This document shows, piece by piece, positions 3,421 to 42,400 of a stretch of DNA of 64,000 nt (the stretch's first letter is position 1; every line of letters starts with the position of its first letter). Source of the DNA: Beroe forskalii (taxonomy: Eukaryota > Ctenophora > Nuda > Beroida > Beroidae); NCBI GenBank assembly GCA_011033025.1, contig WFMF01000164.1, forward strand, positions 1-64,000. The letters are read 5' to 3'. Made by a program: the position numbers and the translations under genes. Under the pieces are notes generated by a model. The model did no database searches, was not told the DNA's origin, and was given only the letters and a program-made list of their open reading frames with translations.

Positions 3421-4206
3421 TCAGTAGTTTTTGATTGAATTTGGCAGGAAATTCCTCGAATGAGCATGTTTCTCGCAATTCTGTCCAATCCACATCATCG
3501 AATAGCTCGTTGAGTAGGACAAAGTCAAAGCTTGGTTGAAATCCAGAGACCTGAAGTTCATTTCATCGAGATAAGCTGCCTGCGCATCGTCCATGGCACC
3601 GGGATTGAAGGACAGAAGAACATTCACCATTTCATGATCCGATAGCTCTGTAGATTCAGCTTTGACATCTGAAATAAGTCTGTCGTTATTACAGAGAACA
3701 AGGTCCAAGATGTTGCTCCCTCTGGTGGGTACTGTTACCATTTGACTGAGCAGGAATGTAGACATGAAGTTCAGCAGACACTGAGCTGAAAATTTCGACT
3801 CAGACGTTCCTCCGCTCAAGACATTTAGGGAGTCCCAGTCAATCTGAGGCAGGTTGAAGTCGCCTGTAATGAAAATGTCATAGTCAGTACTTGGGAGACT
3901 TTCAATAGTGCACTTCAGGTGCTCTATCAGGTTAGAGAAGCTGGAGAAGCTTGCATCAGGCGGTCTGTATACCACTGCCACCAATAGCTTCGCAGAAGGG
4001 TACACATTACAGACAGCCTGGCAGGAACCATCATCGTAGCACTCCGACAAAGAGATGGGGAGCGAAGAAAGTGAGTAAAGTAGAACTCCACCGCCGTTCC
4101 TTTTATCGCGGTCACTCCGAGATACACAGTAGCCTGGGATCTGCAGTTGAGCGTCACTGATGTAAGATTTCAGCCACGACTCCGTGATGGCAATAAACGG
4201 AAACAT
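3421..4206 (-). pseudogene. LINE-A ORF2 endonuclease fragment
   Basis: This is the apurinic/apyrimidinic-type endonuclease domain that nicks target DNA for target-primed reverse transcription. Visible motifs are ITESWL near the start, VVYRPPD, TGDFNLPQIDWDSL and ELSDHE, in the order expected for the exonuclease-endonuclease-phosphatase fold. It is nearly identical to the same region of the copy at 39908. The frame is lost just after the domain. Reverse-transcriptase pieces follow on the minus strand (about 2140-3100 and 1380-1706) in shifted frames. Confidence 0.85.
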
Positions 4207-4997
4207 CTTCCCCGAGAGCCGATTCTCCTCAACATGCCCAATAAGGTCATTGAGAGCCCATCTGCCGACACTCCTGCGCGAGATGGGTTGAGGCTCCTAG
4301 CATTTAGTAGTAGGAGTGATGAGAGAAGGGGATGTGGTGGGAGGAAGCCTGGACACTCTAGCGGCATCATGGGAGGGGTGGTGGGGCTTGGTAAGCCATG
4401 GGTGGTGGCTGGTAAGCCATAACTGGCGGAGGAGCTGGAACTGCACCTTGTTCCACTCTCTTCTCCAACGAGTCCAACTTGGCCGCCATCCCTACAACCA
4501 AGTCTCGCAACTCTAAAAAATCACTGGAATTAGAGTTGCTGCTGGCACCCTTCTGCTTTGTGGCTCTTCCCTTTTCAGCTTGTGGGTTAGCTTTGGAGTC
4601 ACTTCCTCGCTTCTTCCTGGCAGAACTGGGATGAAACTTGGAGCAGTTTTTTTAGCACAAGAACCATTCTGTACCACAGCTTTGCAGATTTCAGGATGGA
4701 AGTAAGGGCAGTTGTTTCCTTTCTTACACCCTTTGCTGTCAGAAGATCCCGCTGATCTGTACTTATAACAAATTCTGGGAGAATGAGAATAGGGACAGCT
4801 TCTACCCTCAATCATCTTCTTCCCGCTGATACCATGAGGGCAGTTCCATTTAAGGTACCTCTGACAAGCCGGAGTGTCTGTCTGAGACGAGCTGGGGAGG
4901 ATTCTCTGGTACTTGAGAAGAGGGGTTTCTGCAGGGGGGTTCCATGCATCGGCAGAATATCCTGGGTGGATGATAGCCCACCGACATAGTGGAGAGA

Positions 4998-5567
4998 TCA
5001 GGCACTGTCTGAACTGTGACTTTCAGACGGTAACGCCCCTGAAGTGTGGCGTGATCTCTGTTTCCTGGGCTCTATCGGGTCAATAACACCATGGCATTCG
5101 TCACAGAGCCAAACAAATCCGCCGGGTGCATCGAGTGCTGATAGAGTCTGATGAAGGGTTCTGTTCCTCTCGCACTGATGAGCCCCTCTGAAACACTTGA
5201 AGCAGTGAAACAAGGGCACGATCTCAGGATTATAATCGATCACGTAGTCACAACCGCAGTCACCACACTTCGCAGGCATCAGTGCCATCAATCCGAGATA
5301 TATGCGAGTGACAAGAGTCGACTTAGTGAACAATTTGTAACCCTGATCGTCTGAGAGAGCAATGCCAAGGAACGTAGCACAACTTTCGAGCAACGCAACG
5401 TTGAACTGATTGAGACGCTGAATGTTACCTGAGTGATTAGTCTGAAAACAATCAAAGTTTGAAATAACTGGTCTTATAGAAATGTCAGCCTTATCTATCA
5501 GTTTTCCAATGATAACCTTAATGTTTTCACTGTCATTTTTGTGACAATTTTTTGTCAAATTCACCAT
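4998..5567 (-). pseudogene. LINE-A ORF1 N-terminal fragment with PHD-like finger
   Basis: The start is the first real ATG in frame (5567); the frame is also open upstream, but only with non-ATG codons. The fragment covers the N-terminal region and a Cys/His cluster (CGDCGC, then HCFKCFRGAHQC, then WLCDECH) that fits a PHD-type C4HC3 zinc finger. The frame stops at 4998, whereas the intact copy at 38544-39812 continues into a linker and three CCCH fingers. ORF1 proteins of CR1-like elements bind the element RNA. A separate frame at 4513-4815 carries the CCCH part, so a frameshift or stop has split this ORF. Confidence 0.8.
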
Positions 5568-5685
5568 TGTACAATGTATGCTGTATTGTAGTGTTATACT
5601 ATACGCACAGCAATGCAGCAGCAGCTGATAATATATCGTTATCAAAAGTAGATAAGAGAGCTACCTAAATCGATACAAAATGCAA

Positions 5686-12509: not shown

Positions 12510-15500
12510 TTGATATAATGCTGCCCACTGCAAGGAGGGGTGGGGGGACAGAAACCCCCTAACTTTAGGTGGATATAATGCTGCCCACTGTAAGAAGGAG
12601 GAGCAGCAACCCCCTAACTTTGGGTGGATATAATGCTGCCAACTGTAAGAAGGAGGGGGCAGCAACCCCCTAACTTTGGGTGGATATAATGCTGCCCACA
12701 GTAAGAAGGAAGGGGCAGCAACCCCCTAACTTTGGGTGTATATAATGCTGCCCACTGTAAGAAGGAGGGAGCAGCAACCCCCTAACTTTGGGTGGGTATA
12801 ATGCTGCTCACTGTAAGAAGGAGGGGGCAGCAACCCCCTAACTTTGGGTGGATATAATGCTGCCAACTGTAAGAAGGAGGGGGCAGCAACCCCCTAACTT
12901 TGGGTGGATATAATGCTGCCCACTGTAAGAAGGAGGGGGCAGCAACCCCCTAACTTTGGGTAGATATAATGCTGCCCACTGTAAGAAGGAGGGGGCAGCA
13001 ACCCCCTGACTTTAAGTGGATATAATACTGCCCACTGTACGAAGGAGGGGACAGCAACCCCCTAACTTAAGGTGGATGTAATGCTACCCACTGTAAGAAG
13101 GAGGGGGCAACAACCCATAACTTTGGGTGTATATAATGCTGCCCACTGTAAGAAGGAGGGGGGCAGCAACCCCCTTACTTTGGATGGGTATAATGCTGCA
13201 CACAGTAAGAAGGAGGGGGGCAGCAACCCCCTAACTTTGGGTGGATATAATGCTACCCACTGTAAGAAGGAGGGGGCAGCAACCCCCTAACTTTGGGTGA
13301 TATAATGCTGCCCACTGTAAGAAGGAGGGGGCAGCAACCCCCTAACTTTATGTGGGTATAATGCTGTCCACTGTAAGAAGGAAGGGGGAGCGACCCCCTA
13401 AATTTGGGTGGATATAATGCTGCCCACTGTAAGAAGGAGGGGGCAGCAACCCCCTAACTTTGGGTGGATATAATGCTGCCCACTGTAAGAAGGAGGGGGT
13501 AGCAACCCCCTAACTTTGGATGGATATACTGCTGCCCATTGTAAGAAGGAGGGGCAGCAACCCCCTAACTTTGGTCGGATATAATGCTGCCCACTGTAAG
13601 AAAGAGGGGCAGCAACCCCCTAACTTTGGGTGGATATAATGCTGCCCTCAGTAAGAAGGAAGGGGCAGCAACCCCCTAACTTTGGGTGGATATAATGCTG
13701 CCCACTGTAAGAAGGAGGGGGCAGCAACCCCCTAACTTTGGGTGGATATAATGCTGTCCACTGTAAGAAGGAGGAGGGCAGCAACCCCCTAACTTTGGGT
13801 GGATATAATGCTGTCCACAGTAAGAAGGAGGGGCAACCCCCTAACTTTATGTGGGTATAATGCTGTCCACTGTAAGAAGGAAGGGGGAGCGACCCCCTAA
13901 ATTTGGGTGGATATAATACTGCCCACAGTAAGAAGGAGGGGGCAGCAACCCCCTAACTTTGGGTGGATATAATGCTGTCCACAGTAAGAAGGAGGGGCAA
14001 CCCCCTAACTTTGGGTGGATATAATGCTGCCCACAGTAAGAAGGAGAGGGCAGCAACCCCCTAACTTTGGGTGGATATAATGCTGCCCACTGTAAGAAGG
14101 AGGGGGCAGCAACCCCCTAACTTTAGGTGGATATAATGCTGCCCACAGTAAGAAGGAGGGGCAGCAACCCCCTAACTTTGGGTGGATATAATGCTGCCCA
14201 CTGTAAGAAGGAGGGGGCAGCAACCCCTTAACTTTGGGTGGATATAATGCTGCCCACAGTAAGAAGGAGGGGCAGCAACCCCCTAACTTTGGGTGGATAT
14301 AATGCTGCCCACTGTATGAAGGAGGGGGCAGCAACCCCTTAACTTTGGGTGGATATAATGCTGCCCACTGTAAGAAGGATGGGGGCAGCAACCCCCTAAC
14401 TTTGGGTGGATATAATGCTGCCCACTGTAAGAAGGATGGGGGCAGCAACCCCCTAACTTTGGGTGGATATACTGCTGCCCACTGTAAGAAGGAGGGGGCA
14501 GCAACCCCCTAACTTTGGGTGGATATAATGCTGCCCACTGTAAGAAGGAGGGGGCAGCAACCCCCTAACTTTAGGTGGATATAATGCTACCCACAGTAAG
14601 AAGAAAGGGGCAGCAACCCCTAACTTTGGGTGGATATAATGCTGCCCACAGTAAGAAGAAAGGGGCAACAACCCCCTAACTTTGGGTGGATATAATGCTG
14701 CCCACAGTAAGAAGGATGGGGCAGCAACCCTCTAACTTTAGGTGGGTATAATGCTGCTCATTGTAAGAAAGAAGGGCAGCAACCCCCTAACTTTGGGTGT
14801 ATATAATGCTGCATACTGTAAGAAGGAGGGGCAGCAACCCCCTAACTTTGGGTGGATATAATGCTGCCCACTGTAAGAAGGAGGGGGTAGCAACCTCCTA
14901 ACTTTGGATTGATATAATGCTGTCCACTGTAAGGAGGGGGCAGCAACCCCCTAACTTTGGGTGGATATAATGCTGTCCACTGTAAGGAGGGGGCAGCAAC
15001 CCCCTAACTTTGGGTGGATATAATGCTGCCCACAGTAAGAAGGAGGGGGCAGCAACCCCCTAACTTTGGCTGGATATAATGCTGCCCACTGTAAGGAGGG
15101 GGCAGCAACCCCCTCACTTTGGGTGGATATACTGCTGCCCACAGTAAGAAGGAGGGGGCAGCAACCCCCTAACTTTGGATCGATATAATGCTACCCACTG
15201 TAAGAAGGAGGGGGTAGCAACCTCCTAACTTTTGGTGGATATAATGCTGCCCACTGTAAGAAGGAGGGGGTAGCAACCCCCTAACTTTGGATCGATATAA
15301 TGCTACCCACTGTAAGAAGGAGGTAAGACGGACTTTTGGGTGGATATACTGCTGCCTACTGTAAGAAGGAGGGGGCAGCAACCCCCTAACTTTAGGTGGA
15401 TATAATGCTGCCACTGTAAGAAGGAGGGGGCAGCAACCCCCTAACTTTGGGTGGATATAATGCTGCCTACTGTAAGAAGGAGGGGCAGCAACCCCTAACT

Positions 15501-17580
15501 TTGGGTGGATATAATGCTGCCCATTGTAAGAAGGAGGGGGCAGCAACCCCCTAACTTTGGATCGATATAATGCTACCCACTGTAAGAAGGGGGTGGCAAC
15601 CTCCCAATGCTGCCCACTGTAAGAAGGAGGGGGTAGCAACCCCCTAACTTTGGATCGATATAATGCTACCCACTGTAAGAAGGAGGAGGTAGCAACCCCC
15701 TAACTTTAGGTGGATATAATGCTACTTAGGGTGGATATAATGCTGCCCTGTAAGAAGGAGGGGGCATAACCCTCTGATATAATGCTGCCCCTAAGAAGGA
15801 GGAGCAAAGGCAAACCCTCAACTTTGGGTGGATATAATGCTGCCCACTGTAAGAAGGAGAGCCCCTAACTTTGGTGGATATAATGCTGTCCACAGTAAGA
15901 ACCCCTAACTTTGGGTGGATATAATGCTGCCCACAGTAAGAAGGAGGGGGCAGCAACCCCCTTACTTTGGATGGATATAATGCTGCCCACTGTAAGAAGG
16001 AGGAGGCAGCAACCCCCTAACTTAGGGTGGATATAATGCTGCCCACTGTAAGAAGGAAGGGGCAGCAACCCCCTAACTTTGGATGGATATACTGCTGTCC
16101 ACTGTAAGAAGGAGGGGGCAGCAACCCCCTAACTTTGGGTGGATATAATGCTGCCCTCTGTAAGAAGGAGGGGGGCAGCAACCCCCTTACTTTGGGTGGG
16201 TATAATGCTGCCCACAGTAAGATGGAGGGGGAGCAACCCCTTAACTTTGGGTGGATATAATGCTGCCACTGTAAGAAGGTAAGGGCAGCAACCCCTTACT
16301 TTTGGGATGGATATAATGCTGCCCACTGTAAGAAGGGGGCAGCAACCCCTAACTTTGGGTGGATATAATGCTGCCACTGTAAGAAGGAGGGGGCAGCAAC
16401 CCCCTTTGGATATAATTTGTATGGATATAATGCTGGATACCCACAGTAAGAAGGAGGGGCAGCAACCCCTAACTTTGGGTGGATATAATGCTGCCCACAG
16501 TAAGAAGGAGGGGTGGGCATAATGCCCCAACTAAGAAGGATGGGGCATTGGGTGGATATAATGCTGCCCACTGTAAGAAGGAGGGGGCAGCAACCCCTAA
16601 CTTGGGTCGGATATGGCCGCACTGTAAGAAGGAGGGGCAGCAACCCCCTAACTTTTGGGTGGATATAATGCTGCCCACTGGTAAGAAGGAGGGGGGCAGC
16701 AACACCCCTAACTTTGGGTGGATATAATGTAGAAGGAGGGGCCCACTGTAAGAAGGAGGGGCAGCAACCCCCTAACTTTGGGTGGATATAATGCTGCCCA
16801 CTGGTAGAAGGAGGGGCAGCAACCCCCTAACTTTGGGTGGATATAATGCTGCCCACTGTAAGAAGGAGGGGCAGCAACCCCTAACTTTGGGTGGATATAA
16901 TGCTGCCCACTGTAAGAAGGAGGGGGCAGCAACCCCCTAACTTTGGGTGGATATAATGCTGCCCACTGTAAGAAGGAGGGGCAACCCCCCTAACTTTGGG
17001 TGGATATAATGCTGCCCACTGTAAGAAGGAGGGGCAGCAACCCCCTAACTGGTGGATATTAATGGGCCCACTGTAATGCAACCCCTAACTTTGGGTGGAT
17101 ATAATGCTGCCTGTAGAAGGAGGGGGCAGCAACCCCCTAACTTTGGGTGGATATAATGCTGCCCACTGTAAGAAGGAGGGGGCAGCAACCTCTAACTTGG
17201 TGGATGGATATGCCCACTGTAAGAAGGAGGGGCAGCAACCCCCTAACTTTGGGTGGATATAATGCTGCCCACTGTAAGAAGGAGGGCGGCAACCCCTAAC
17301 TTTTGGGTGGATATCTATAATGCTGCACACTGTAAGAAGGAGGGGCAGCAACCTCTAACTTTGGTGGATATAATGCTGCCCACTGTAAGAAGGAGGGGCA
17401 GCAACCCCTAACTTTTGGGTGGATATAATGCTGCCCACTGTAAGAAGGAGGAGGGGCAGCAACCCCTAACTTTGGGTAGATATAATGCTGCCCACTGTAA
17501 GAAGGAGGCGTAACCCCCTAACTTTGGGTGATATAATGCCCCAGTAGAGGGGGGAGCAACCCACTTATGGAATGCGCCAC
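12510..17580. repeat. 56-bp satellite array 1 (about 90 copies)
   Basis: Tandem units of about 56 bp each contain GGATATAATGCTGCCC, ACTGTAAGAAGGAGGGGG and CAGCAACCCCCTAACTTT. Because 56 is not a multiple of 3, open frames crossing it cycle through all frames and are not genes. Units are regular up to about 15580. From there to 17580 they are increasingly broken by small indels, partial units and fusions. The array ends about 20 bp beyond the stop codon of the minus-strand SGNH gene. Confidence 0.95.
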
Positions 17581-17602: not shown

Positions 17603-20309
17603 TCAGGTAGATGTCTTCAAATTATCAGGCAGAACATCCTCAGAGTAGGAAAGTCCATCCAAAAGAGAAAACAGAGATCCCTCGATGTGATTCTTCTGCC
17701 AGAAGTAAATTATTGAATCCTTTATGATCTTCCTCATTAGTTCTAGTCCTTCAAAGTTTAGATGTAATAGGTCTTTAGGGGTAACATGGCGCTTCAATCT
17801 GAAGAATGTAGATACAGGGATAGTGGTAGCTTTAAAGGAGGTTACTACGCTGTCAATAGCTGTGTTGTAGTCATCGATTCTGTGACGGTGGTTCAAACTT
17901 TGGGCATCATTACGAGGAAGAAGGTGGCAACAGAAAAGGACGGCACAGGGAAATTTTTCAGAAGCAACCGATAACAACTGAAAGTACAGTTCGCGAAAAC
18001 GTGCTCCGTTATAACAACGCATGATATCGTTTGTACCGACGCATATGACTACGGCTGCGATGGAACTGTCTGCGCGATGTTTCTGTACGCGGCGAGTCAT
18101 AGCGCTTATCCCCTCCCCACCAACACACTCACATGCTACCTCCTTGAAACTGTCTGTGAAGTCCGTTCTCTGGACGTTGTTCTGTCTCAGAGGGCTGCAC
18201 AGGTGCTTCAGTATGCTGTCTCCGATGACGAGAGCCTAAAACATGTATATATCGTTTTCAATACAATGGTTAGACCAACGTACTCACTTTATTTTAAATT
18301 CAGATCAATGTGGGACAAATGATCCGTATGAATTTGATAATCATGCAGAAAATAACCTTGATATGCGTGTACTGGTAGGGCATGACCACGGGACCTGGAT
18401 TCTCCTCCACGTCTCCACACAAGAGGAGGAGGCTCTGGAGTATCAGGCGGCTGATGTAATCCGTGGTAGGTTCCAGTAACACAGTGTTCCATGTTGTGCT
18501 GACGAAATGATGCATACCTGTATATAATAGCTTCATTATTCATGGCGAACAATAATGATTAGATACTAATTAAGTACTTTAAAGAGATGTGGTTCGAGTT
18601 ATTGGCAAAGAAATGTCACATTGAATAACGGATTGGCATTGAAACAATGTTGTCGCATACCTTCACTGAAGTGACGTAGCGCAAAGATGATGTTGCTGTT
18701 GCTGCCGCTTCGGAAGATAGATTCCAGCACGTCTTCTACGACATCGAGGAACCAGTAGGTCGCTGATGAAATGTATCATTTTAATTGAGCAATTAAGAAT
18801 TAGATGATTGAAATAAGATGGAATTGAGATCAAGTGAAGGCCATTTCGCTGTGAGTTTTACGACATATTAGTAGAAGGAACAATAAAAACCTCGCTATGC
18901 GATTACAGGATATCCATTGAATGTTGGTATGAGGGCAGTATATACTTTATACTTCGAGTTCATGGCAAAGAAAGGGCCGCATTCAATAATTAAATGGCGT
19001 GTCATACCTTGGCCTTCGCTGAAGTGGCATAGCACATGGATGATGTTGCTGTTGCTGCCGCTTCGGAAGACAGATTCCAGCACGTCTTCTACGACATCGA
19101 GGAACCAGTAGGTCGCTGAGTTCGTGATAAAATGTATCAATTTAATAGAGAATTGTATGATTGTAATAACCTTGAATTGAGATAAAGTGATGACCATTTT
19201 GCTGAGAGCATTACTCGATAGGAATAAAAGGAGCAATAACTACCTCGATATGCGATACATGATATCCATCGAATGTTGTTAGGGCAGCAAATTGCTAACT
19301 CTATGATTGTTGCAGCTATCCCTTCCAACGTATGGTGTAATCCTGTAAGCAGGTTATCATAATTGAGGTTGGTTTAAAAAGGAGACTCCAAAAGCAGGAT
19401 GGTTAGTGGAATAGGAGACCGATCAGCCTATTTATTTCAATAGATTATCGAAACAGATGGCCAACTCCTCCGGGCCTTCGGCCCGGAGGAGTTGTTATGT
19501 GAATAATTGAACAGACGGCTCGATACGGAACATACGGCTGACTCCTCCGGGCCTTCGGCCCGGAGGAGTCACTTTTCCGTCAAATGATAGTAATACCCAC
19601 CTTCCAGGAAAACAATGCATGTTTGATGGATGTTCTTGTCAGTGCCACAGGTGTAGAGGACCTCCAAACCGTACTCCACCAAGTCAGCCACAGCGATAAT
19701 CAGCTCGTGCACTTGTGGGATGGGCTGGGACCTGACAACACTCTTACCTGGTGCCTGGAACAGCGTCATCATGAAGTGAAGATCCCACTCCATGATGACG
19801 TCAGCCGGTGTTGCTGAGTTCAAGCAGACAGGTAGGATCAGGGCGAGTAACAACTTAGCGTGGCGATGTTGTATTACGCGAGTCACCCTGATCACTACCT
19901 GCCTCCTAGAAACTCCGTAAGCACTGTGCTGGAACCTGGGACTGGAATGAAAGAACAAGTACCATATGGTGATATTTTCGTTAATGTATTGAGTCAAGTT
20001 ACACAACATATCTGATAGAATTAGATAATAATGCATCATTTCCTCAGAACAAATATCATTCAGAAAACCATTTAGCATCTCACAAATCAACTGGAAATGT
20101 ATATCAAGACCATGACAGAAATACAATATGAATGACTTGACACTGTACGAAACAATTCCAATACACACATCCAAAATTGAAAGAAAGGAGTCAAAAATAT
20201 CGTAGCAACTGTGGCTAAAATCGTAGTTTCCCGTAATTCCGCTGTCAGGAGGTGCCAAGTCCATTGAACAGCCCAGTATTAGAAGCAGTATTAGCACACG
20301 GTATCTCAT
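17603..20309 (-). CDS. Unrecognised five-exon gene with 2A-like motif and SGNH/GDSL hydrolase domain
   Basis: Proposed exons (minus strand): 20309-19601, 19115-19008, 18762-18661, 18517-18357 and 18235-17603. All junctions are GT-AG, and phases agree throughout (1,1,1,0), giving 1713 nt or 570 residues. The start is a real ATG followed by a signal-peptide-like core (residues 3-13). Exons 2 and 3 are tandem duplicates, and the end of exon 1 resembles them. Exon 4 carries LLLLCGDVEENPGP, a 2A ribosome-skipping motif with the break expected between G348 and P349. Exon 5 is a full SGNH hydrolase: GDS (Ser367), VGTND (Asn429) and a D-x-x-H pair (Asp515, His518). Skipping would release a 222-residue hydrolase without its own signal peptide. 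2A motifs and SGNH domains both occur in CR1-type retroelement ORF1s, so domestication or decay of such an element is the alternative. The splice frame argues for a host gene. The last donor (GTTATT) is weak. Confidence 0.62.
18390..18413 (-). other. 2A-like ribosome-skipping motif (DVEENPGP)
   Basis: The eight codons GAC GTG GAG GAG AAT CCA GGT CCC encode the full D-V-E-x-N-P-G-P signature, preceded by the usual leucine-rich stretch. In known 2A sequences the peptide bond between the final Gly and Pro is not formed, and translation resumes at Pro. Activity here is inferred. Confidence 0.8.
18661..19115 (-). repeat. Tandem exon duplication in the 2A/SGNH gene
   Basis: Exon B (19008-19115, 108 nt) and exon A (18661-18762, 102 nt) share about 90 percent of their bases by eye, and their flanking introns are also similar, with starts 353 bp apart. 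Both are multiples of three and phase 1 at both ends. They could be included together, skipped, or used as alternatives without breaking frame. The shared peptide core is TYWFLDVVEDVLES. Confidence 0.7.
19462..19494. repeat. 33-nt GC-rich palindrome, copy 1
   Basis: This near-perfect inverted repeat is built on ACTCCTCCGGGC / GCCCGGAGGAGT around a TTC loop. It lies in the intron between exons 1 and 2 of the minus-strand gene, 77 bp from an identical core. It would form a very stable hairpin in DNA or pre-mRNA. Confidence 0.8.
19539..19571. repeat. 33-nt GC-rich palindrome, copy 2
   Basis: The 29-nt core is identical to the palindrome at 19462, and the flanks differ. Two copies in one AT-rich intron suggest a small mobile hairpin or a paired structural element. 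Confidence 0.8.
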
Positions 20310-20514
20310 CGTTGAACTTGGATCTAACTTACAAAATGGTTTGGGCGATCAAACGTAATGCAGCGGAATCACGGGAGAAATGATAAATGCGAGAGTTTTA
20401 GGAAGTGGACTCGAGAGGTTTCCTTGGCAACGAGCTAAATGTACTAGCAGATGCGCGAGTGTAATCATATAGAGTACAATGTGCGCGCAGTGAGTGTAGC
20501 AAAATGTGACATGC

Positions 20515-20565
20515 ATACGACGACGACGACGACGACCAAGTTTGGTCGCGCGCGCGCAGCACCAC
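20515..20565. repeat. (ACG)n / (CG)n microsatellite
   Basis: A run of ACG triplets is followed shortly by GTCGCGCGCGCGC, upstream of both the minus-strand 2A/SGNH gene and the plus-strand LINE-B. Confidence 0.7.
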
Positions 20566-20673
20566 CTATTTCAGATTTAACAGTACGCGTAAAGGTAGTA
20601 TACACACAACCCCCACGAAACACGATCTCTGCTAACCTTTTCTCAATGCCTTTTTGTATTCACAAAAACGCGA

Positions 20674-21183
20674 TTGGGAACAGGAAAAAATATAAGAGGG
20701 GTGATTTGTGATGTGAACATTTCATTGGCAGAGTCAGCTATCCTTCAAGAGTTCAGTGACCAATATGGGTGGACAGACATCAAACTGAGACGTTTTGTGG
20801 ATAGGCAAGGTATTGTGAGGCCCACAGTACTGATCAATTTCAACAACTCAGGACAATTAGAAGAAGCCATCCGCAGAGGAGTCTTTCTTGACAATGTTTA
20901 TTGTGATATCAAGATTTTTGAGCCCAAGGCATCTGTTACTCAATGTTACAAATGCTATGGATTTGATCACACAGCTATTTGGTGCCCCAAGAGGCAACAG
21001 GTATGTCCACATTGCTCACAATCACACAAACCTAGTGAATGCCTAATCAAGCAAGAAAATGATACAGAACAGCTAAAATGCCCCAATTGCAAAGATAATA
21101 GACAGCATTCTGCCACTGACAGCTCATGCCCCAAATACAATGAAAAGCTCACTTACCTCCAAAGCCTTCAACATGGTCAGTAA
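20674..21183 (+). CDS. LINE-B ORF1, zinc-knuckle gag-like protein (5' incomplete)
   Basis: This encodes a gag-like RNA-binding protein of an I/Jockey-type LINE. The frame opens at a non-ATG codon and no good ATG precedes it, so the N-terminus is probably missing and the element 5'-truncated. Visible parts are the RGVICDVNIS region, a PTVLINF segment typical of these ORF1s, and three Cys/His knuckles. These are CYKCYGFDHTAIWC (CX2CX4HX4C), CPHCSQSHKPSEC, and CPNCKDNRQHSATDSSC. The last 44 nt overlap the start of ORF2 in another frame, a common arrangement in this group. Confidence 0.75.
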   Translation: MGTGKNIRGVICDVNISLAESAILQEFSDQYGWTDIKLRRFVDRQGIVRPTVLINFNNSGQLEEAIRRGVFLDNVYCDIKIFEPKASVTQCYKCYGFDHTAIWCPKRQQVCPHCSQSHKPSECLIKQENDTEQLKCPNCKDNRQHSATDSSCPKYNEKLTYLQSLQHGQ

Positions 21184-24100
21184 TCAGTATAACCATGTCC
21201 CTATTTGTCAGTTAAACCTTAATGGCCTCAGCACACACTCAGAAACTGCTCTCTCACATTTTATACATGATCGTAACATTGATATATTAGCACTACAAGA
21301 AATAGGTTCTAATAAAGAACCAGATGTGAATATATTTACCAACATGTCTACTTTCTCTTCCATGGCAGACAGAGGGGTGTCTATCTCTATATCAAATTGT
21401 TATCACCCTCAGAGAATGCAGATTCTAGAAAATGAAAATGTGGGAGTTGTTTATGCAACAGCTACAATTGGTAATGAATCCTTGGTTATTGGCTCTTGCT
21501 ATTGCTCACCTGATCCAAAATCAACAGATGGTCTTACAAAAGTATTACAAAATATCCAAAATGCATGGAAATTCTGCCAAAAGACAGGAATAAATGGTTT
21601 GATTGTTCTTGGTGATATAAACGCCAGAAGTCAGCAATGGGGTGATAAAACACAAAACCCCAGAGGTAAACTTCTTGCAGAATTTGTACAGAAAAATTCC
21701 TGTTCAGTGTCAGCTCCTCCAGGAAATACTTTTGTTTCCTTGAATTCCAAGGGTGTGGCTGGTGGTAGTGTGATTGACTTATGTCTGGCTTATGGGAGTG
21801 CAGTAGCAGCTCTGGGGGATTCATGGATAGATGAAAGTGATGTTCATGAGCTCTTCACAGGGGCTCCTATAAGAGGTCACCTACCAGTGATACAACATTT
21901 TATGTGCCCTTCAAAATTAGGAGAAGCCTTGGAGGGTGCTAGGAAAGTCTTTAACTTTGATTGTGCTGATTGGTCTAGCTGGTCCTCCCATGTAGATACC
22001 AAGCTAAAAGATTTTCTATCAAATAATGAGGTGGAAGGTACATATCTTGATCCAGTTCAGCTATACCAGTTCTTCTTGAGAACAGTTCTTGAGGCATCAG
22101 ACATGTATGTACCATCAAAACAGATTTGCAGACACTCCAAGCCATATTGGAGTGATTATTTGTCTGAACTTTCAAATAAACTGAGAGAAGCGAAAGATGT
22201 GTATCAGTTCAAATTTACCACATCTAACAAAGTGCAATATGACAAAGCTAAAGATGAATTCAAAACAGCTCTCATCAAAGAGAAGAATGAGTGGATTCAC
22301 AAAAAACTAGAAAAGTTGAATGTCAAAGAAAGTTTGCTGTTCTGGAAACAATATCGTAGAATATTCCTATCTGATGATGAAAATTTCATTGGCAATCTCC
22401 TTGACAATGACAGTAATTCTTTGTATGTTGATAATTCAAAAAAAGAAAAGCTTCTCTACCAAACTTTCTTCAGTGGCAAGCATCTCAATGGTAAGCAGTT
22501 TGATGAGAACCACTTCTCAAAAATAAGCAGACAGCTGAATCAACTAAAGAGGGAAGACTTCTGGGTAAAAGAAGAACAAAATGATATTGAACATCTCAAT
22601 GAAGATATAACAGTTACAGATGTGACAACTGCTATCAAATCTCAAAAGACTACTGGTAAGTCTCAAGATGGAGATAAGATACATCCAAAGATGCTCAAGA
22701 ACCTTTCTTTTGATTCTTGCCAGTTCCTTGTAAAGATATTCAACTTATCCTTGGATACTGGTGTCTGGCCATGGACTGAATCCTATGTAACTTTTATCAA
22801 AAAAACAGGTAAAAAGACATATTTAGATCCTTGTTCATATCGTCCCCTCTCAATAAGTAGTTACATTGGGAAAATCTTGGAAAGGATTTTAGAACAGCGC
22901 CTCAAAGTTCACTGCAAGCTAGAAAACATCATTGATGATGCACAAGAAGGCTTTTTATCTGGTAAGAATACCACCAGATATTTATACAAAATGCTTTCAT
23001 CTTTGCATGAGGTCAAACGCAGAAAAATGACTGCCTTCATTCTTCTTATTGATTTTGAAAAGGCCTTCGATAGTGTTTCTATACCATGTCTTATCTTCAA
23101 ACTCTTCAACTACGGGATTAAAGGAAAACTGCTTCGCTTAGTCCATTCTTTCCTCTCAACAAGATCTGTCAAGTTGAAAGTTAATGGTTATATAGGACCA
23201 AAGAGAATATGTGAACTAATTGGTTTGCCACAAGGTGCTGTCCTTTCACCTTTACTGTTTATAATTTACATAGCAGACCTTCTTGGATCCAAGAACTTGC
23301 CACCAGATTTAGCTAATTTTACAGAATGTTACAAATATGCGGATGATGGGAGTGTGTCAGTGGTTGGAGATTCTATTCCTGAGTGTCAGTTGAATATGCA
23401 GAAAGTTTGTGACTACATTCAGGGTTGGTGTAGAAAATGGAGACTGGTAGTAAACTGTGATCCCAATAAGACAGAGATCATTATTCTCAAAAACAGAAAT
23501 TCAGACATTGACAGAAGTGTTGTTCCACCAGTTTATATTGGAGATAAACAGCTCTGTTATGTAGCCAAAAGCAAAGTTCTTGGTGTCACTTTAGATGAGG
23601 ACTTAAGTTTTATTCAACATGCTAACATGACCCTTAGAAACTGTTGGTTCAAAATATCAAATAATAGTTCCAGAAAACGTGGACTGAATATGGCTACTCT
23701 GGTCATTCTGTTCAAGACTGTGGTACTTACAAAGCTCTTGTATGCTGCCCCGATTTGGTTATACAAAAGAATGGATACTTATAAAGATTTCTTTGCAAGA
23801 ACTACCCTGAAAATGTTAGGAGCTCAATTTTATCCTCCTAAACAACTAGCAAAAGCTCTACTGGGTCTACCACCTCTTGAACTCATTCTATAGATCATCA
23901 ATGTGAAATTTGTTCTAAAAGCTCTATCACAGCAAGATTCTCTCTCATCAAGAATCATGCAAATTGAAGAAACTCCTTCACATGAGTTCTTTTCTCAGGT
24001 TCATTCCACAAAATTGTTCCTACATTGGAAATTTCAATCTCTGCCCAAAACAAATGACAACTTACTCCCATCTTCTCTCAGGGAGATAAGCTTGACAGAA

Positions 24101-24670
24101 ATAGCACCCCATAACTTCATGTATAATGAAGCCCTGATGAAGACTTATCTATGTGTCCTTTGGGATGAAAGGTTGAAAGCAGATATAGAGGGACTTATAA
24201 ATCATGATCCTTATTGTATTGAACAAAAAAACAGCCCAGAGGAACTTGCAGGTATTGTTGATACATGGAAAGTACTTGAGAACCCTCTTGTATTGAGGAT
24301 TAATTCTCGTTTTCAGAGTACTAACTTAATGGATTTTATTCATGGGCGTTGTCTTATGTTCCAAAATTTTGCATTCTCTGTCCTCAAATATGACAAATCA
24401 AAACATGTCCCCATGTGTCTGGAATGCTCTGAGCTACCTGATTCAGTATATCACAAACTATTCGAATGTCAAATGTACAGTGATGAAGTAGAAGCCCTTA
24501 GAAACAGTTTGACTACTCTCAAGGAAATGGAAATAAATTTTCATCTCAAAGTTATTTTCTGTGAGGACATGAGCCTAAGAAAGAAGTTCTTCAGCCTCGT
24601 TCAACTTATCTGTGAAGAGTCAGTTTTCAAGGATGACTATTTGATTAGAAGTGATGAATCAGATACTTGA
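21140..24670 (+). pseudogene. LINE-B ORF2, endonuclease-reverse transcriptase with one in-frame stop
   Basis: The ATG at 21140 opens a frame of 917 codons to a TAG at 23891-23893. The same frame then continues to 24670, so a single premature stop separates it from a 1176-codon ORF. Domains in order: APE-type endonuclease (QLNLNGLSTHSE, LALQEIGS, VLGDINARSQQWGD, RGHLPVIQ); reverse transcriptase with YRPLSISS, LIDFEKAFDSV, LPQGAVLSPLLF and the catalytic YADDGS; then a C-terminal CX2C-X8-HX4C knuckle (CLECSELPDSVYHKLFEC) in the part after the stop. That order and knuckle fit the I/Jockey superfamily; the exact clade is not clear. The otherwise clean frame suggests recent insertion. The stop could also be a sequencing error. 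Confidence 0.85.
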
Positions 24671-26936: not shown

Positions 26937-29795
26937 TGGATATAATGCTGCCCACTGTAAGAAGGAGGGGGCAGCAACCCCCTAACTTTGGGTGGATATA
27001 ATGCTGCCACTGTAAGAAGGAGGGGGCAGCAACCCCCTAACTTTGGGTGGGTATAATGCTGCCCACAGTAAGAAGGAGGGGGCAGCAACCCCCTAACTTT
27101 GGGTGGATATAATGCTGCCCACTGTAAGGAGGGGGCAGCAACCCCCTAACTTTGGGTGGATATAATGCTGCCCACTGTAAGAAGGAGGGGGCAGCAACCC
27201 CTAACTTTGGGTGGATATAATGCTGCCCACTGTAAGAAGGAGGGGGCAGCAACCCCCTAACTTTGGGTGGATATAATGCTGCCCACAGTAAGAAGGAGGG
27301 GGCAGCAACCCCCTAACTTAAGGCGGATATAATGCTGCCCACTGTAAGAAGGAGGGGCAGCAACCCCCTAACTTTGGGTGGATATAATGCTGCCAACTGT
27401 AAGAAGGAGGGGGCAGCAACCCCCTAACTTTGGGTGGATATACTGCTGCTCACAGTAAGAAGGAGGGGGCAGCAACCCCCTAACTTTAGGTGGATATACT
27501 GCTGCCCACTGTAAGAAGGAGGCAGCAACCCCTAACTTTGGGTGGATATAATGCTGCCCACTGTAAGAAGGAGGGGGCAGCAACCCCCTAACTTTGGGTG
27601 GATATAATGCTACCCACTGTAAGAAGGAGGGGGCAGCAACCCCCTAACTTTTGGTGGATATAATGCTGCCCACTGTAAGAAGGAGGGGGTAGCAACCCCC
27701 TAACTTTGGGTGGATATAATGCTGCACACAGTAAGAAGGAGGAGGGCAGCAACCCCCTAACTTTGGGTGGATATAATGCTGCCCAGTGTAAGAAGGAGGG
27801 GGGCAGCAACCCCCTAACTTTGGGTGGATATAATGCTGCCCACTGTAAGAAGGAGGGGCAGCAACCCCCTAACTTTGGGTGGATATAATGCTGCCCACTG
27901 TAAGAAGGAGGGGGCAGCAACCCCCTAACTTCGGGTGGATATAATGCTGCACACAGTAAGAAGGAGGAGGGCAGCAACCCCCTAACTTTGGGTGGATATA
28001 ATGCTGCCCACTGTGAGAAGTGGGGGGGCAGCAACCCCTAACTTTAGGTGGATATAATGCTGCCCACAGTAAGAAGGAGGGGGCAGCAACCCCCTTACTT
28101 TGGGTGTATATAATGCTGTCCACTGTAAGAAGGAGGCAGCAACCCCCTAACTTTAGGTGGATATAATGCTGCCCACAGTAAGAAGGAGGGGGCAGCAACC
28201 CCCTTACTTTGGGTGTATATAATGCTGTCCACTGTAAGAAGGAGGCAGCAACCCCCTAACTTTGGGTGGATATACTGCTGTTCACTGTAAGGAGAGGGCA
28301 GCAACCCCCTTACTTTGGGTGTATATAATGCTGTCCACTGTAAGAAGGAGGTAGCAACCCCCTAACTTTATGTGGGTATAATGCTGCCCACTGTAAGAAG
28401 GAGGGGGCAACAACCCCCTAACTTTAGGTGGATATAATGCTGCCCACTGTTAGAAAGAGGGGGTAGCAACCCCCTAACTTTGGGTTGATATAATGCTGCC
28501 CACTGTAAGAAGGAGGGGGGTAGCAACCCCCTAACTTTGGGTTGATATAATGCTGCCCACTGTAAGAAGGAGGGGGTAGCAACCCCATTACTTTGGGTGG
28601 ATATAATGCCGCCCACTGTAAGAAGGAGGAGGGCAGCAACCCCCTAAGTTTAGGTGGATATAATGTTGCCCACAGTTAGAAGGAGGGGGCAGCAACCCCC
28701 TAACTTTAAGCGGAAATAATGCTGCCCACAGTAAGAAGGAGGGGGCAGCAACCCCCTAACTTTGGGTGGATATAACGCTGCCCACTGTTAAAAGGAAGGG
28801 GCAGCAACCCCCTAACTTTGGGTGGGTATAATGCTGCCCACAGTAAGAAAGAGGGGGCAGCAACCCCCTAACTTTGGGTGGATATAATGCTGCCCACTGT
28901 AAGAAGGAGAGGGCAGCAACCCCCTAACTTTGGGTGGATATAATGCTTCCCACAGTAAGAAGGAGGGGGCAGCAACCCCTAACTTTGGGTGGATATAATG
29001 CTGCCTACTGTAAGAAAGAAGGGTAGCAACCCCCTAACTTTGGGAGGATATAATGCTTCCCTCTGTAAGAAGGAGGGGGTAGCAACCCCCTAACTTTGGG
29101 TGGATATAATGCTGCCCACAGTAAGAAGGAGGGGTAGCAACCCCCTAACTTTAGGTGGATATAATGCTGCCTACTGTAAGAAAGAAGGGTAGCAACCCCC
29201 TAACTTTGGGAGGATATAATGCTGCCCACTGTAAGAAGGAGGGGGCAGCAACCCCCTAACTTTGGGTGGGTATAATGCTACCCACTGTAAGAAGGAGGGA
29301 GCAGCAACCCCCTAACTTTGGGTGGATATAATGCTGCCCACTGTAAGAAGGAGGGGGCAGCAACCCCCTAACTTTAGGCGGATATAATGCTGTCCACTGT
29401 AAATAGGAGGGGGCAGCAACCCCCTAACTTTGAGTGGATATAATGCTGCCCACTGTAAGGAGGGGGCAGCAACCCCCTAACTTTGGGTGGATATAATGTT
29501 GCCCACAGTAAGAAGGAGGGGGGCAGCAACCCCTAACTTTGGGTGGATATAATGCTGCCCACAGTAAGAAGGAGGGGGCAGCAACCCCCTGACTTTGGGT
29601 GGATATAATGCTGCCCACAGTAAGAAGGAGGGGGCAGCAACCCCCTAACTTTGGGCGGATATAATGCTGTCCACTGTAAATAGGAGGGGGCAGCAACCCC
29701 CTAACTTTGAGTGGATATAATGCTGCCCACTGTAAGGAGGGGGCAGCAACCCCCTTACTTTAGGTGGATATAATGCTGCCCACTGTAAGAAGTTT
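26937..29795. repeat. 56-bp satellite array 2 (about 50 copies)
   Basis: It has the same unit and orientation as array 1, but is cleaner throughout. It begins after GCATTGGTGGATATAATG and ends at 29795, where the last unit breaks off after ACTGTAAGAAG. Several neighbouring units repeat as higher-order blocks, for example near 28040-28215 and around 29380 and 29660. Confidence 0.95.
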
Positions 29796-36400: not shown

Positions 36401-39400
36401 GTGATCAGAATTGTTTTTAAGTCATCAGAAGTGGCCGAATGGCAATATATGGCAATTGTGACGTCATCAAAATTGCCATATATTGCCATTCGGCCACTTC
36501 TGATGACTTAAAAACAATTCTGATCACCAAACCGTGTTCTTTGAGTATGACTTAGTATACAAAAAAAGCAAAATTTCGTTGCTATCTCTTTTTAAAAAGT
36601 TAATATTGTTGAAGTATGCCCATATATGGTCATTTACCATATGGGCATATGAAAATCGGCCATATCTCAGCCCCTGAATGAGATAGAAGCATTATTCTTG
36701 ACCTATACCCCCATTTTCTTACCTGTAGAAAACGATGAACACGACTAAAAGAGACATAGACAAGTAGTTTCCAAGTTATAGTACCTGGGCAATTTGCCTT
36801 TATGATTAACAGGCAAAAGTTTTTGCCTCCTGGCGAGTCCCAAAAATATTTTTTCCAAAAATTTTGATTTGCTTTCATGCCCTAGGCTGTATGAAAGTGC
36901 CCCAGGCATATTGAGTTGCTAAAGTCGGGAAATTCTGTTACACCCTAATCTATGTATGTCTGTGTGTATGTATGTATGTATCTATGCATGTCTGTATGTA
37001 TGTGTGTCTGTATAAGTGTATACATGTGTATGTGTTCGGAGCAACAGAGAGTGGCACGAGCATTAGTGACACTTGATACACACAAATGCACAACATGCGA
37101 CCTGTTAGAGCCCTGTTGTTTGTCCGGTGCTTTGCTGAAACTGTCCTCTTCCTGTTTCGTACCGTCCTTTTCCTGTTCAGTACCGTCCTCTTCCTAGTCA
37201 GTACCGTCCTTTTCCTAGTCAGTACCGTCCTCTTCCTGTTCAGTGCCGTCCTTTTCCTGTTCAGTGCCGTCCTTTTCAGACTCAAGGCATTCGAGGAGGA
37301 GATGGTGCGAGTAGAGCAGCAGTGGATAAAGGCCATTGTGTCCCTGGCCAGCTTCGTCAACAGCGAAAAGGTTCGTTTTTGCTATTGGTTTTGTCAACAT
37401 ATCGATTTGAAATTTTTCAGTACTTTCACTACAATTTGCATCGAAAGTTGGCCCCATTACATGTTGACGTGAAAACAGTAAATTTGTGCGTCTTTATCAA
37501 GCTCTCAATCGAGTGATCTGCACTCATAGATTGCTGTTCCAAGGCTCTCCTAGGGATCTGGCAATCCTCAAATACCAACCAACACGCCCTCACAACTCCT
37601 AAAATTGGTAGCCAGTGAGGTTTCGCCAAGATGGTCATCCTTGTAGAGGCCCTCAACAGCCTTGGCTCCTGCAGTTGATTAAGACGTTTTTCATTATACC
37701 AAAACACAGCCTGCAAACAACAGTACTGTTGATGATAAGTTTCATTGTACCTAAGATGCGCACTCACAATGCTAGCTCTCGAGGGCTCTGACAATGTTAC
37801 CTAAGCTTAGGTAAGATGCACCCTGACAATGTAACCTCAGGTGCCATCCTGACAATGTTACCTCAGGTGCCATCCTGACAATGTTACCTCAGGTGCCACC
37901 CTGACAATGTAACCTCAGGTGCCACCCTGACAATGTAACCTCAGGTGCCACCCTGACAATGTAACCTCAGGTGAACAGCAGAGAAAAGGACTGCGAGGAG
38001 TGGGAGTTCCTCAGCCGGCAGCACATGCTCCACTACAGAGACAGGAGCGCCAAACGGAACGTGTTTTCCTGCACTGCTACCAAACGGTACGTGTTTTCTT
38101 GGCACTACATAGGCGGATAGGATGACGTCATTATCATATCCCAATGTAGTGAGTTGATGACCGTGAACCGCCTACTTCTGTTTCCATTTTAAAATCACGG
38201 CCATCCCTGATCATCCCCAATCATTTCGGACCCATCTTAGAATGTTCATCTGACACCAGATACGCCTCAGGAACGTTATAAAAGATGAGGAGAACAGTCC
38301 AATTGACAACAGCGAAGAGAACGTACCGTCTTCTTTGAAAGGGAAATTCTTCTTCGCTTCACAAACAGTTATGAAGAGGTTTAGATTGCTTCTCTACAAT
38401 CGATGTTCGATGAAATGATACCATTTTGCATTTTGTATCGATTTAGGTAGCCCTCTTATCTACTTTTGATAACGATATATAATCAGCTGCTGCTGCATTG
38501 CTGTGCGTATAGTATAACACTACAATACAGCATACATTGTACAATGGTGAATTTGACAAAAAATTGTCACAAAAATGACAGTGAAAACATTAAGGTTATC
38601 ATTGGAAAACTGATAGATAAGGCTGACATTTCTATAAGACCAGTTATTTCAAACTTTGATTGTTTTCAGACTAATCGCTCAGGTAACATTCAGCGTCTCA
38701 ATCAGTTCAACGTTGCGTTGCTCGAAAGTTGTGCTACGTTCCTTGGCATTGCTCTCTCAGACGATCAGGGTTACAAATTGTTCACTAAGTCGACTCTTGT
38801 CACTCGCATATATCTCGGATTGATGGCACTGATGCCTGCGAAGTGTGGTGACTGCGGCTGTGACTACGTCATTGATCATGAGCCTGAGACTGCGCCCTTG
38901 TTTCACTGCTTCAAGTGTTTCAGAGGGGCTCATCAGTGCGAGAGGAACAGAACCCTTCATCAGACTCTATCAGCACTCGATGCACCCGGTGGATTTGTTT
39001 GGCTCTGTGACGAATGCCATGGTGTTATTGACCCGATAGAGCCCAGGAAACAGAGATCACGCCACACTTCAGGGGTGTTACCGTCTGAAAGTCACAGTTC
39101 AGACAGTATGCCTGATCTCTCCACTATGTCGGGTGGGCTATCATCCACCCAGGATATTCTGCCGATGCATGGAACCCCTGCAGAAACCCCCTCTTCTCAA
39201 GTACCAGAGAATCCTCCCAGCTCGTCTCAGACAGACACTCCGGCTTGTCAGAGGTACCTTAAATGGAACTGCCCTCATGGTATCAGCGGGAAGAAGATGA
39301 TTGAGGGTAGAAGCTGTCCCTATTCTCATTCTCCCAGAATTTGTTATAAGTACAGATCAGCGGGATCTTCTGACAGCAAAGGGTGTAAGAAAGGAAACAA

Positions 39401-42400
39401 CTGCCCCTACTTCCATCCTGAAATCTGCAAAGCTGTGGTACAGAATGGTTCATGTGCTAAAAAAGACTGCTCCAAGTTTCATCCCAGTTCTGCCAGGAAG
39501 AAGCGAGGAAGTGACTCCAAAGCTAACCCACAAGCTGAAAAGGGAAGAGCCACAAAGCAGAAGAATGTCAGCAGCAACTCTAATTCCAGTGATTTTTTAG
39601 AGTTGCGAGACTTGGTTGTAGGGATGGCGGCCAAGTTGGACTCGTTGGAGAAGAGAGTGGAACAAGGTGCAGTTCCAGCTCCTCCGCCAGTTATGGCTTA
39701 CCAGCCACCACCCATGGCTTACCAAGCCCCACCACCCCCTCCCATGATGCCGCTAGGAGTGTCCAGGCTTCCTCCCCACCACATCCCCTTCTCTCATCAC
39801 TCCTACTACTAAATGCTAGGAGCCTCAACCCATCTGCGCAGAGTGTCGGCAGATGGAAGCTCAATGACCTCATTGGGCATGTTGAGGAGAATCGACTCTC
39901 GGGGAAGATGTTTCCGTTTATTGCCATTACGGAGTCGTGGCTGAAATCTTACATCAGTGACGCTCAACTGCAGATCCCAGGCTACTGTGTATCTCGGAGT
40001 GACCGCGATAAAAGGAACGGCGGCGGAGTTCTACTTTACTCACTTTCTTCGCTCCCCATCTCTTTGTCGGAGTGCTACGATGACGGTTTCTGCCAGGCTG
40101 TCTGTAATGTGTACCCTTCTGCAAAGCTATTGGTGGCAGTGGTATACAGACCGCCTGATGCAAGCTTCTCAAGCTTCTCTAACCTGATAGAGCACCTGAA
40201 GTGCACTATTGAAAGTCTCCCAAGTACTGACTATGACATTTTCATTACAGGCGACTTCAACCTGCCTCAGATTGACTGGGACTCCCTAAATGTCTTGAGC
40301 GGAGGAACGTCTGAGTCGAAGTTTTCAGCTCAGTGTCTGCTGAACTTCATGTCTACATTCCTGCTCAGTCAAATGGTAACAGTACCCACCAGAGGGAGCA
40401 ACATCTTGGACCTTGTTCTCTGTAATAACGACAGACTTATTTCAGATGTCAAAGCTGAATCTACAGAGCTATCGGATCATGAAATGGTGAATGTTCTTCT
40501 GTCCTTCAATCCCGGTGCCATGGACGATGCGCAGGCAGCTTATCTCGATGAAATGAACTTCAGGTCTCTGGATTTCAACCAAGCTGACTTTGTCCTACTC
40601 AACGAGCTATTCGATGATGTGGATTGGACAGAATTGCGAGAAACATGCTCATTCGAGGAATTTCCTGCTAAATTCAATCAAAAACTACTCGATATGTGCC
40701 TGGAGAATGTCCCTCGCAAACGACCGCCGACTGGTCGACCTAAGCTCTACAATTCCTTGAGACGCAGAAAGTCGAAGCTCAGAGGTCGGCTCTCTGCAGC
40801 AAAGTGCTCGGGTGACGCGGCCCGAATCAAGGAACTTGAAGATGAGATCGGGTTGGTGTCCTACGACATAAAGGAGGCTATCATCCACCACCTTGATCAA
40901 GGAGAAAGACGAGCAGTAGAAAGAATCAAGACTAACCCGAAGTTTTTCTACTCCCTACGCTAAATCCTTCTCCAAAGTTAAGCACAGTATCAACACTCTC
41001 TTGAATGCTGACAAGGAACTGGTGACTGACAGAAAGGAGATGGCTAACATTCTTCAGCAACAGTTTTGTTCTGTTTTCAGTGATCCTAACTGTACAGAAA
41101 AGTCAGCTCCTTCCTTTACTGTACCACCACTCACCAGTAGTGATACAGAAATGGAACTAACACTGGAGAGCATAAAGGAAGCTATAGCTGAAATTAAGCT
41201 TGACTCTGCCCCTGGACCCGATGGTATCCCGGCCATTCTCCTAAAGAAATGTGCAACAAGCCTCAGTTTGCCAATCTATCTTCTGTGGTCGGAGTCCATG
41301 TCATCTGGCGTTGTGCCAAAGTTCTATAAGACAGGGTTCATCACTCCGTTATTTAAGAAAGGTAGCCGATGTGAAGCTGCTAACTACAGACCTGTTACCT
41401 TAACTTCACATGTTGTAAAAGTCTACGAGAGAGTAGTCAGAAAACACATGATTCACCATCTGGAATCGAACAATCTACTGACAGATAAGCAACACGGTTT
41501 CAGATCTAACAGAAGCTGCCTGACTCAAATGCTCGACCACTTTGACGACATATTCGAAGGATTTACTCAGGGTCAAGATACAGACTCAATATATCTCGAT
41601 TATGCGAAAGCATTTGATAAAGTGGATCTGGATATTCTCATCAAGAAGCTAAGGAGATATGGCTTTCACGAAAAGCTAATTACGTGGATCCAGTCATTTC
41701 TCACGGACCGTGACCAAGTGGTGGTTCTCAATGGTGTCCACTCCGTCATCGCCAAAGTGCTCAGCGGTGTTCCTCAGGGAAGTGTCCTTGGGCCGCTCTT
41801 ATTCATTCTGTTTATAAATGATCTGGAGCGTGTTGTGCTTGCATCCAGGGTCAGCTTTTTTGCAGACGACACTCGAGTTTCCAAACAGATTGGCTGCTAT
41901 GACGACTGTATGCTGCTTCAGGAAGACTTGAACAGAATTCTCAACTGGTCACGTGAAAATAACATGGAACTTCATGAGCAGAAATTTGAGCTCTTGAATC
42001 ACTTCCATAACAGGAAAAGCTCATTCCTCGAACTCCCCTTCTTCACTGAAGCTTTGACTTACAAGGTTTCAAACGATGAATCTCTTTACCCTGTGGAGAA
42101 CGTTAGAGATCTTGGTGTTCAGGTATCAAGTGATTTGAGTTGGTCTAGACATATCGCAACCACCGTGTCAAAAGCTAGGAGCACGCTATCATGGGTTTTC
42201 AGTGTCTTCAAAACTCGAGACAGTATGGTCATGACTACCATGTATAAGTCACTGGTGAGGAGTACACTAGAGTACTGCTGTCCCCTGTGGAACCCTAGCA
42301 AGGTCACTGAGATCCAGCTTATAGAAGGGGTACAAAGAACTTTCACCAGTCGTGTAGTTGGTCTACGTCATCTCAACTATTGGGAAAGACTAGCTAAGCT

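Follow-up and report, generated by a model that had tools for sequence, protein, structure and literature searches.

The window analysed here, that is, the whole stretch of 64,000 nt of contig WFMF01000164.1 from Beroe forskalii (C208 among the contigs of this genome), carries on its minus strand, between 20309 and 17603, a gene that very likely represents the 5′ part of a Helitron-like rolling-circle transposon, in a copy truncated at its 3′ end. The gene of this family would be spliced and would rely on 2A skipping to split secretory and replicase products. Comparison of the copies found in the genome (our searches covered 216 Mb in 1134 contigs) suggests a family polyprotein in which a signal peptide and an N-terminal region, partly built of ~35-residue exon modules, would be followed by the 2A peptide, an SGNH hydrolase, an AlkB-type 2OG-Fe(II) dioxygenase, proline-rich and charged repeats, DUF6570, an HUH Rep and a PIF1 helicase, with the window copy retaining only the N-terminal module, the 2A peptide and the SGNH domain. 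In the living transposon, the 2A peptide very probably parts the secretory N-terminal protein from the SGNH-AlkB-Rep-helicase protein.

Exon structure and relatives in the same genome

The GT-AG-bordered exons of the minus strand join into a single frame of 569 codons plus a stop. The five exons and the uninterrupted frame proposed in the initial annotation were thus recovered, but the count given there was 570 codons, and a sixth exon, e3b (18762-18661), had been overlooked. The exons are as follows.

Exon 1 (e1), 19601-20309, minus strand: start codon, signal-peptide-like start MRYRVLILLLILGCS, hydrophobic stretches and, at its end, the first ~35-aa repeat module; homologues P0001-P0003
Exon 2 (e2), 19244-19342, minus strand: 99 nt, phase 1-1, weak likeness to the module; also present in C297
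Exon 3 (e3), 19008-19115, minus strand: ~35-aa module (DVVEDVLESVFRSGSNSNII)
Exon 3b (e3b), 18661-18762, minus strand: near-identical, in-phase duplicate of e3, which may be alternative or additional
Exon 4 (e4), 18357-18517, minus strand: bears the 2A peptide
Exon 5 (e5), 17603-18235, minus strand: SGNH hydrolase domain; relatives run on to AlkB and Rep, and the stop found here is absent from C281 and C297

Exon 3b belongs to a ~353-bp tandem duplication, the two copies of which agree at 93% along 107 nt covering the exon, as against 77% along 113 nt of mostly intronic sequence. Exons 2, 3 and 3b are in phase 1 at both ends, and therefore including or skipping any of them preserves the frame; indeed, among the five exon combinations translated, no stop interrupted the frame whether e3, e3b or the two together were included. 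A module alignment of 13 sequences, picked by hand from the window, C297, C847 and C225, displays the ~35-residue likeness at the end of exon 1, in exon 3 and in exon 3b, and more weakly in exon 2.

The splicing of the window gene is supported by the conservation of its exon borders, since the e1 donor, the e4 acceptor and donor, and the e5 acceptor stand at the same positions in the window, C297, C847 and C225, and we infer from this that splicing takes place in vivo. Exons 1, 4 and 5, with matching borders, recur in same-genome paralogues at 44-73% amino-acid identity, in agreement with the spliced gene first proposed. Exon 2 was found in C297 only and not in C847 or C225, in which other stretches resembling the module separate exon 1 from exon 4. 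A further intron of ~37 nt within e1 (CAG/GTAAGAG) was considered and rejected as unneeded, the frame being open across it and C847 and C225 encoding similar residues there. Note that intron 1 contains two identical, hairpin-like near-palindromes of 29 nt (19464-19492 and 19541-19569), one of which is matched perfectly over 32 nt in C297, and that 18494-18515 and 20031-20052, at the start of exon 4 and in exon 1, are complementary over 22 nt (91%), which could allow pairing in the pre-mRNA or may be due to chance.

Searching the genome with the 569-aa protein gave 23 matches on C208 (the window), C1058, C297, C847, C225, C281, C653 and, weakly, C715. Exon 1 is matched at 87% in C1058, at 48% in C847 and at 46% in C225, the SGNH domain being 72% and 59% identical in the latter two; C297 matches the first four exons and exon 5 in part, with a broken SGNH, while C281 matches the end of the SGNH domain, C653 exon 4 and C715 a weak piece. 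The domain order was read most completely in C847, where exon 5 starts an open frame of 2026 aa whose first 1941 aa (L029) contain, in order, the SGNH family PF13472 (2.4e-7), the AlkB-type 2OG-Fe(II) oxygenase PF13532 (3.6e-19), PF20209 (DUF6570, 5.9e-17) and PF14214 (Helitron_like_N, 9.6e-17), with proline-rich and charged repeats between the AlkB-type domain and DUF6570. After Helitron_like_N, near the junction of the Rep and helicase frames, C847 has a GSPHIHFML stretch, which we take to be an HUH-like motif, and the next frame, after a frame interruption, encodes a PIF1 helicase (2.6e-25). C225 joins SGNH and PF13532 (AlkB) in a single 1169-aa frame. Downstream and on the same strand in C297 are DUF6570, Helitron_like_N (4e-24) and PIF1 (3.7e-26), and C1058 has a weak, partial Helitron_like_N (E 1.7e-4) ~0.2 kb past e1, while neither exon 2 nor exon 5 is matched within the 17.5 kb examined. 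Helitron_like_N has 20 matches genome-wide, and in three cases (C847:370929, C297 and C1058) the match follows an exon 1 of the family. Because the relatives carry Rep and PIF1 downstream, the window gene is, judged by homology, the 5′ end of the gene of a Helitron-like element; the mobile-element origin suspected in the initial annotation is thereby upheld. As regards the AP endonuclease that marks the Helentron subclass, no endonuclease family was found in the helicase frames of C847 and C297, although one might sit on a split-off exon.

At its ends, the window copy displays the following features.

Element 5′ boundary with the bases preceding the start codon, 20310-20698, minus strand: starts ...TTTTTTCCTGTTCCC..., the homology running on into exon 1
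Last bases homologous to C281 and C297, 17580-17602, minus strand: C281 and C297 run on towards AlkB, and the window copy is cut off
56-bp minisatellite array, 12512-17565, no strand assigned: adjoins the truncated 3′ end

A common 5′ start of the element is seen in the window, C1058, C297 and C225: homology begins at 20698 with C1058 and at 20691 with C297 and C225 (whose 5′ match covers 20691-20609 only), the copies sharing ...TTTTTTCC... and differing in their flanks. At the other end, the homology stops at ~17580, where C281 and C297 continue and the window meets a stop and then the minisatellite. The window copy is, as its alignments indicate, a 3′-truncated piece, and the final stop of its gene is no natural C-terminus, C281 and C297 being homologous beyond it.

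The 2A motif and the predicted products

The canonical 2A motif of the initial annotation is present in e4 as GDVEENPGP, that is, the octapeptide D-V/I-E-x-N-P-G-P in an L-rich context. Its location is given below.

2A core LLLLCGDVEENPG/P, 18390-18431, minus strand: predicted ribosome-skipping site; pattern match at 18391-18413; same peptide in all five e4 copies found

A degenerate 2A DNA pattern matched once in the window and in none of 100 dinucleotide shuffles, and therefore the motif is not due to chance. In the 216-Mb genome, the canonical DNA pattern has six matches (none for a reversed control pattern), five of which belong to this transposon family (window, C225, C297, C653 and C847); the protein search recovers the same five exon 4 copies. 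The sixth, a DVETNPGP at C436:15713 (L047 4714), stands alone in a short frame that showed no link to SGNH, and may be a relic or due to chance.

The peptide of the 2A core (LLLLCGDVEENPGP) is identical in all five copies, and its nucleotide differences are all silent: eight between the window and C847, seven between the window and C225 and four between C847 and C225, or 49 silent and 0 replacement changes when pairwise differences are summed over the five copies. Only 7 of the 28 residues upstream of the core are common to the window and C847, as compared to 14 of 14 in the core itself. This silent-only change looks like the pattern expected of selection for the 2A peptide itself. Note that three of the cores (window, C297 and C653) have the same DNA sequence, which leaves few independent comparisons, and that both copy-finding methods favour conserved copies; in C653, exon 4 shifts frame upstream of the 2A.

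On the N-terminal side, the start of exon 1 (MRYRVLILLLILGCS) is almost invariant in homologues P0001-P0003, which are ~46% identical overall. Residues 4-14 are strongly hydrophobic, as expected from the signal-peptide-like start first described, and further hydrophobic windows lie at residues 35-53 and 154-172, the start of exon 1 encoding a putative signal peptide. On the other side, the predicted SGNH hydrolase is confirmed by PF13472 (E 4.1e-10) and by the catalytic blocks GDS, GTND and DxxH, and the blocks GDS, GG, GTND and DxLH are kept in all four aligned sequences. The full protein had no match at E≤0.001 among 7865 protein-database candidates, exon 1 alone giving 3/213 matches and exon 5 alone 1/106; two scans of viral contigs found no relative, and the PDB sequence search gave a single weak match (3p94, E 0.26).

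The two predicted products of the window copy comprise 347 and 222 residues, the upstream one having 345 or 381 with alternative exons. Hence, the 222 residues of the initial annotation hold for this copy, its 348 upstream residues should read 347, and its description of the second product as a 222-residue hydrolase does not extend to the full element, which has a very long polyprotein instead. In an intact element, the ribosome would make the N-terminal protein and route it to the endoplasmic reticulum (ER); the Gly-Pro bond at the 2A end would not be formed, upon which the N-terminal protein would be released and translation would continue. The second protein would start with PVVMPYQYT, has no evident signal, and would remain in the cytosol or nucleus, where the Rep-helicase acts. 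Such separation would be needed because the Rep-helicase must reach DNA, and the architecture suggests why the 2A would be retained: when one message encodes both a protein with a signal and a Rep-helicase, the two have to be separated before the latter is drawn into the ER. AlkB acts on alkylated nucleic acid, and we would guess the same for the AlkB domain of this family. The SGNH part might, again as a guess, act on lipids, by analogy with what has been proposed for the ZfL2-1 esterase (PMC3905857). Leaky skipping might yield a minor fused form, as described for the 2As of sea-urchin NLR proteins (PMC4981915).

Alternative origins and genomic surroundings

Several observations weigh against the Helitron reading. 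The Rep-to-helicase frame of C847 is interrupted, the SGNH of C297 is broken and C225 gave no Helitron_like_N match, and therefore no examined copy is fully open; where the element ends on its 3′ side was looked for and not found. Tblastn detected no AlkB, Rep or helicase remnant in the window, so that the membership of the window copy in the family rests on homology to the other copies. Over the first 64 codons of e5, the ratio of nonsynonymous to synonymous substitution rates (dN/dS, by the simple counting method NG86) between the window and C297 is 0.42, on only 10 changes (4 silent, 6 replacement). In addition, clean 2A separation is not assured, since ER translocation of certain upstream proteins inhibits 2A, according to one report (PMC2978324).

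The initial annotation had suggested a possible domesticated ORF1 (first open reading frame of a retroelement), and it may be asked whether the host has retained the truncated window gene for two proteins, a secreted N-terminal one and an SGNH esterase. The six exons are all open with all internal GT-AG borders intact, e3b was kept at 93% identity where the mostly intronic stretch fell to 77%, and the substitutions of e1 specific to the window lineage amount to 12.5 silent and 12.5 replacement on 151 and 557 sites, respectively, all of which would fit retention. However, on the same sites the counts are 11.5:12.5 for C1058 and 11:12 for C297. Since C1058, with exon 1 and no match to exon 2 or exon 5 in 17.5 kb, shows much the same counts, the e1 pattern is most readily explained by selection that acted while the element was active, before it inserted, and gives no special support for domestication. 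By NG86, dN/dS of e1 is 0.25 against C1058 and 0.31 against C297, and that of e5 is 0.09 against C847 (with dS 1.8, near saturation). The window copy has lost the mobility genes, as a domesticated gene would, but its substitution counts do not set it apart from C1058 and C297. Moreover, it is a truncated copy whose stop is absent from C281 and C297, and its gene ends at the local minisatellite. The introns, which had been taken as a sign of domestication, are not a pointer to it because they are no obstacle to a DNA transposon, which may carry them. With no positive evidence for it, domestication appears quite improbable.

An origin as ORF1 of a CR1-like long interspersed nuclear element (LINE), as first envisaged, is more improbable still. 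What speaks for it is that the genome has frames with AlkB then SGNH (L003 and L004) beside endonuclease- or reverse transcriptase-like frames identified by eye, and that the SGNH domains of the window, C847 and C225 score E 8e-7 to 6e-4 with three of the four LINE-type SGNHs compared (two in the case of C847), as compared to only E 0.6-2.3 with one stand-alone SGNH frame. However, the fourth LINE-type SGNH (C1002) does no better (E 3-4), Rep and PIF1 are what follows downstream in C847 and C297, no reverse transcriptase family came up when the frames of C847, C225 and C297 were scanned with Pfam, the introns of the gene are conserved, and the two LINE-type ORF1s that we read (C1 and C193) have the order AlkB-SGNH, the reverse of that in the Helitron family. 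Since LINE-type ORF1s bear the same domains in the other order, modules are apparently shared between LINE and Helitron element types in this genome, in which PF13532 has at least 150 matches (150 of 189 candidates scored). A degenerate LLNPGP was also noticed in the AlkB-SGNH frame of the LINE-type L004.

It is conceivable, yet unlikely, that a host gene of the form signal peptide-2A-SGNH was captured by Helitrons and is not core to the element. Helitrons capture genes, and the texim genes of fish are intron-bearing SGNH genes beside Helitrons (PMC4021074). Against capture, the SGNH domain is fused in frame to AlkB in C847 and C225, and on to Rep in C847, e5 evolves under constraint, and the e1 matches all lie within the loci of the family, bar the weak C715 piece. 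In addition, an SGNH match also lies upstream, on the strand of the Rep frame, in a second Helitron group (C1099 and C432), the one in C432 being below the Pfam cut-off. Taken together, the in-frame SGNH-AlkB(-Rep) fusion and the SGNH of the second group favour an integral or repeatedly acquired Helitron module. In this second group (L042 and L043 in C1099, L044-L046 in C432), the Rep frames have 2871 and 2814 codons, PIF1 and a Ulp1-type protease are present in C1099, the SGNH matches lie 4-5 kb upstream of DUF6570, and no NPGP was found.

Within the Helitron reading, one may ask, given the constraint on the secretory product, whether Helitrons have a role at the cell surface. We regard as rather doubtful the idea of an envelope- or receptor-like N-terminal product, secreted or membrane-bound, that together with a membrane-active SGNH esterase would help Helitrons to pass from cell to cell or between species, making the element virus-like. 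If this were true, the 2A would let a single DNA transposon message yield both a protein for the extracellular route and a nuclear replicase.

Around the gene, the 56-bp minisatellite was found on C208 only (75 of 75 among at least 75 matches), at 12512-17565 and again at 26939-29792. A non-LTR (long terminal repeat) retrotransposon with endonuclease and reverse transcriptase domains (20700-24670, plus strand) adjoins the 5′ boundary of the Helitron piece. As the minisatellite flanks the Helitron piece and this LINE on both sides, nested insertions are suggested, and the two may lie within one local array. Further away, two retroelement copies (3421-5660, minus strand, and 38451-42785, plus strand) have frames that are near-identical by eye, with RVT_1 in the second, and a gamma-glutamyltranspeptidase gene lies at 48402-50488 on the minus strand (PF01019, E 7.8e-76, in the frame 48402-49430; 49592-50488 looks by eye like its other part).

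Comparison with known systems

2A skipping, which is common in RNA viruses and has been reported in APE-type retrotransposons, rarely occurs in cellular genes. Work by Odon in 2013 is said to describe 2A in APE-type non-LTR retrotransposons, where it separates parts of the transposon polyprotein; the present case differs in that the 2A stands after a long secretory protein in a spliced gene of a rolling-circle DNA transposon. We found no report of a 2A in such a transposon in the literature searched or among the papers listed by broader queries, Repbase and most subscription papers lying outside the search. Two candidate reports were rejected, as ‘2A-like’ is part of the gene name GTF2IRD2/2A-like in one (PMC10641963) and ‘2A peptide’ refers to a cloning construct in the other (PMC6647327).

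Partition of products by a 2A and secretory targeting is likewise described for sea-urchin NLR proteins, in which a 26-aa N-terminal 2A is itself the signal and products are split between the ER route and the cytosol (PMC4981915), whereas the present protein has its signal at residue 1 and the end of its 2A at residue 347. An SGNH domain encoded by a transposon is also known from the ZfL2-1/CR1 ORF1p, an esterase for which a membrane or lipid role has been proposed (PMC3905857), but this is a LINE ORF1 whose domain order and partners are unlike those of the Helitron family. Helentrons and Helitron-like elements share with this family a Rep, a PIF1-type helicase and accessory domains, there OTU, AP endonuclease, RPA and a VTD deubiquitinase (PMC4067079, PMC9741609, PMC6431247); in contrast, the accessories here are the SGNH, the AlkB, the secretory N-terminus and the 2A, and an AlkB-type dioxygenase is thus added to the domains seen with a Helitron Rep.

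The closest known system is that of the fish texim genes, SGNH genes with multiple introns and a Helitron coding region just 3′ of them or in their last intron, which were read as captured host genes (PMC4021074). The likeness covers the SGNH domain, the multiple introns and the position of the Helitron coding region (PMC4021074); what differs is that the SGNH of the present family shares a frame with AlkB, in C847 also with Rep, and comes after a 2A and a signal-peptide module. The main text of the texim paper mentions no 2A-like sequence, NPGP, ribosome skipping, AlkB or polyprotein (PMC4021074). The family described here therefore offers a testable alternative to the view of Helitron-adjacent SGNH genes as captured host genes.

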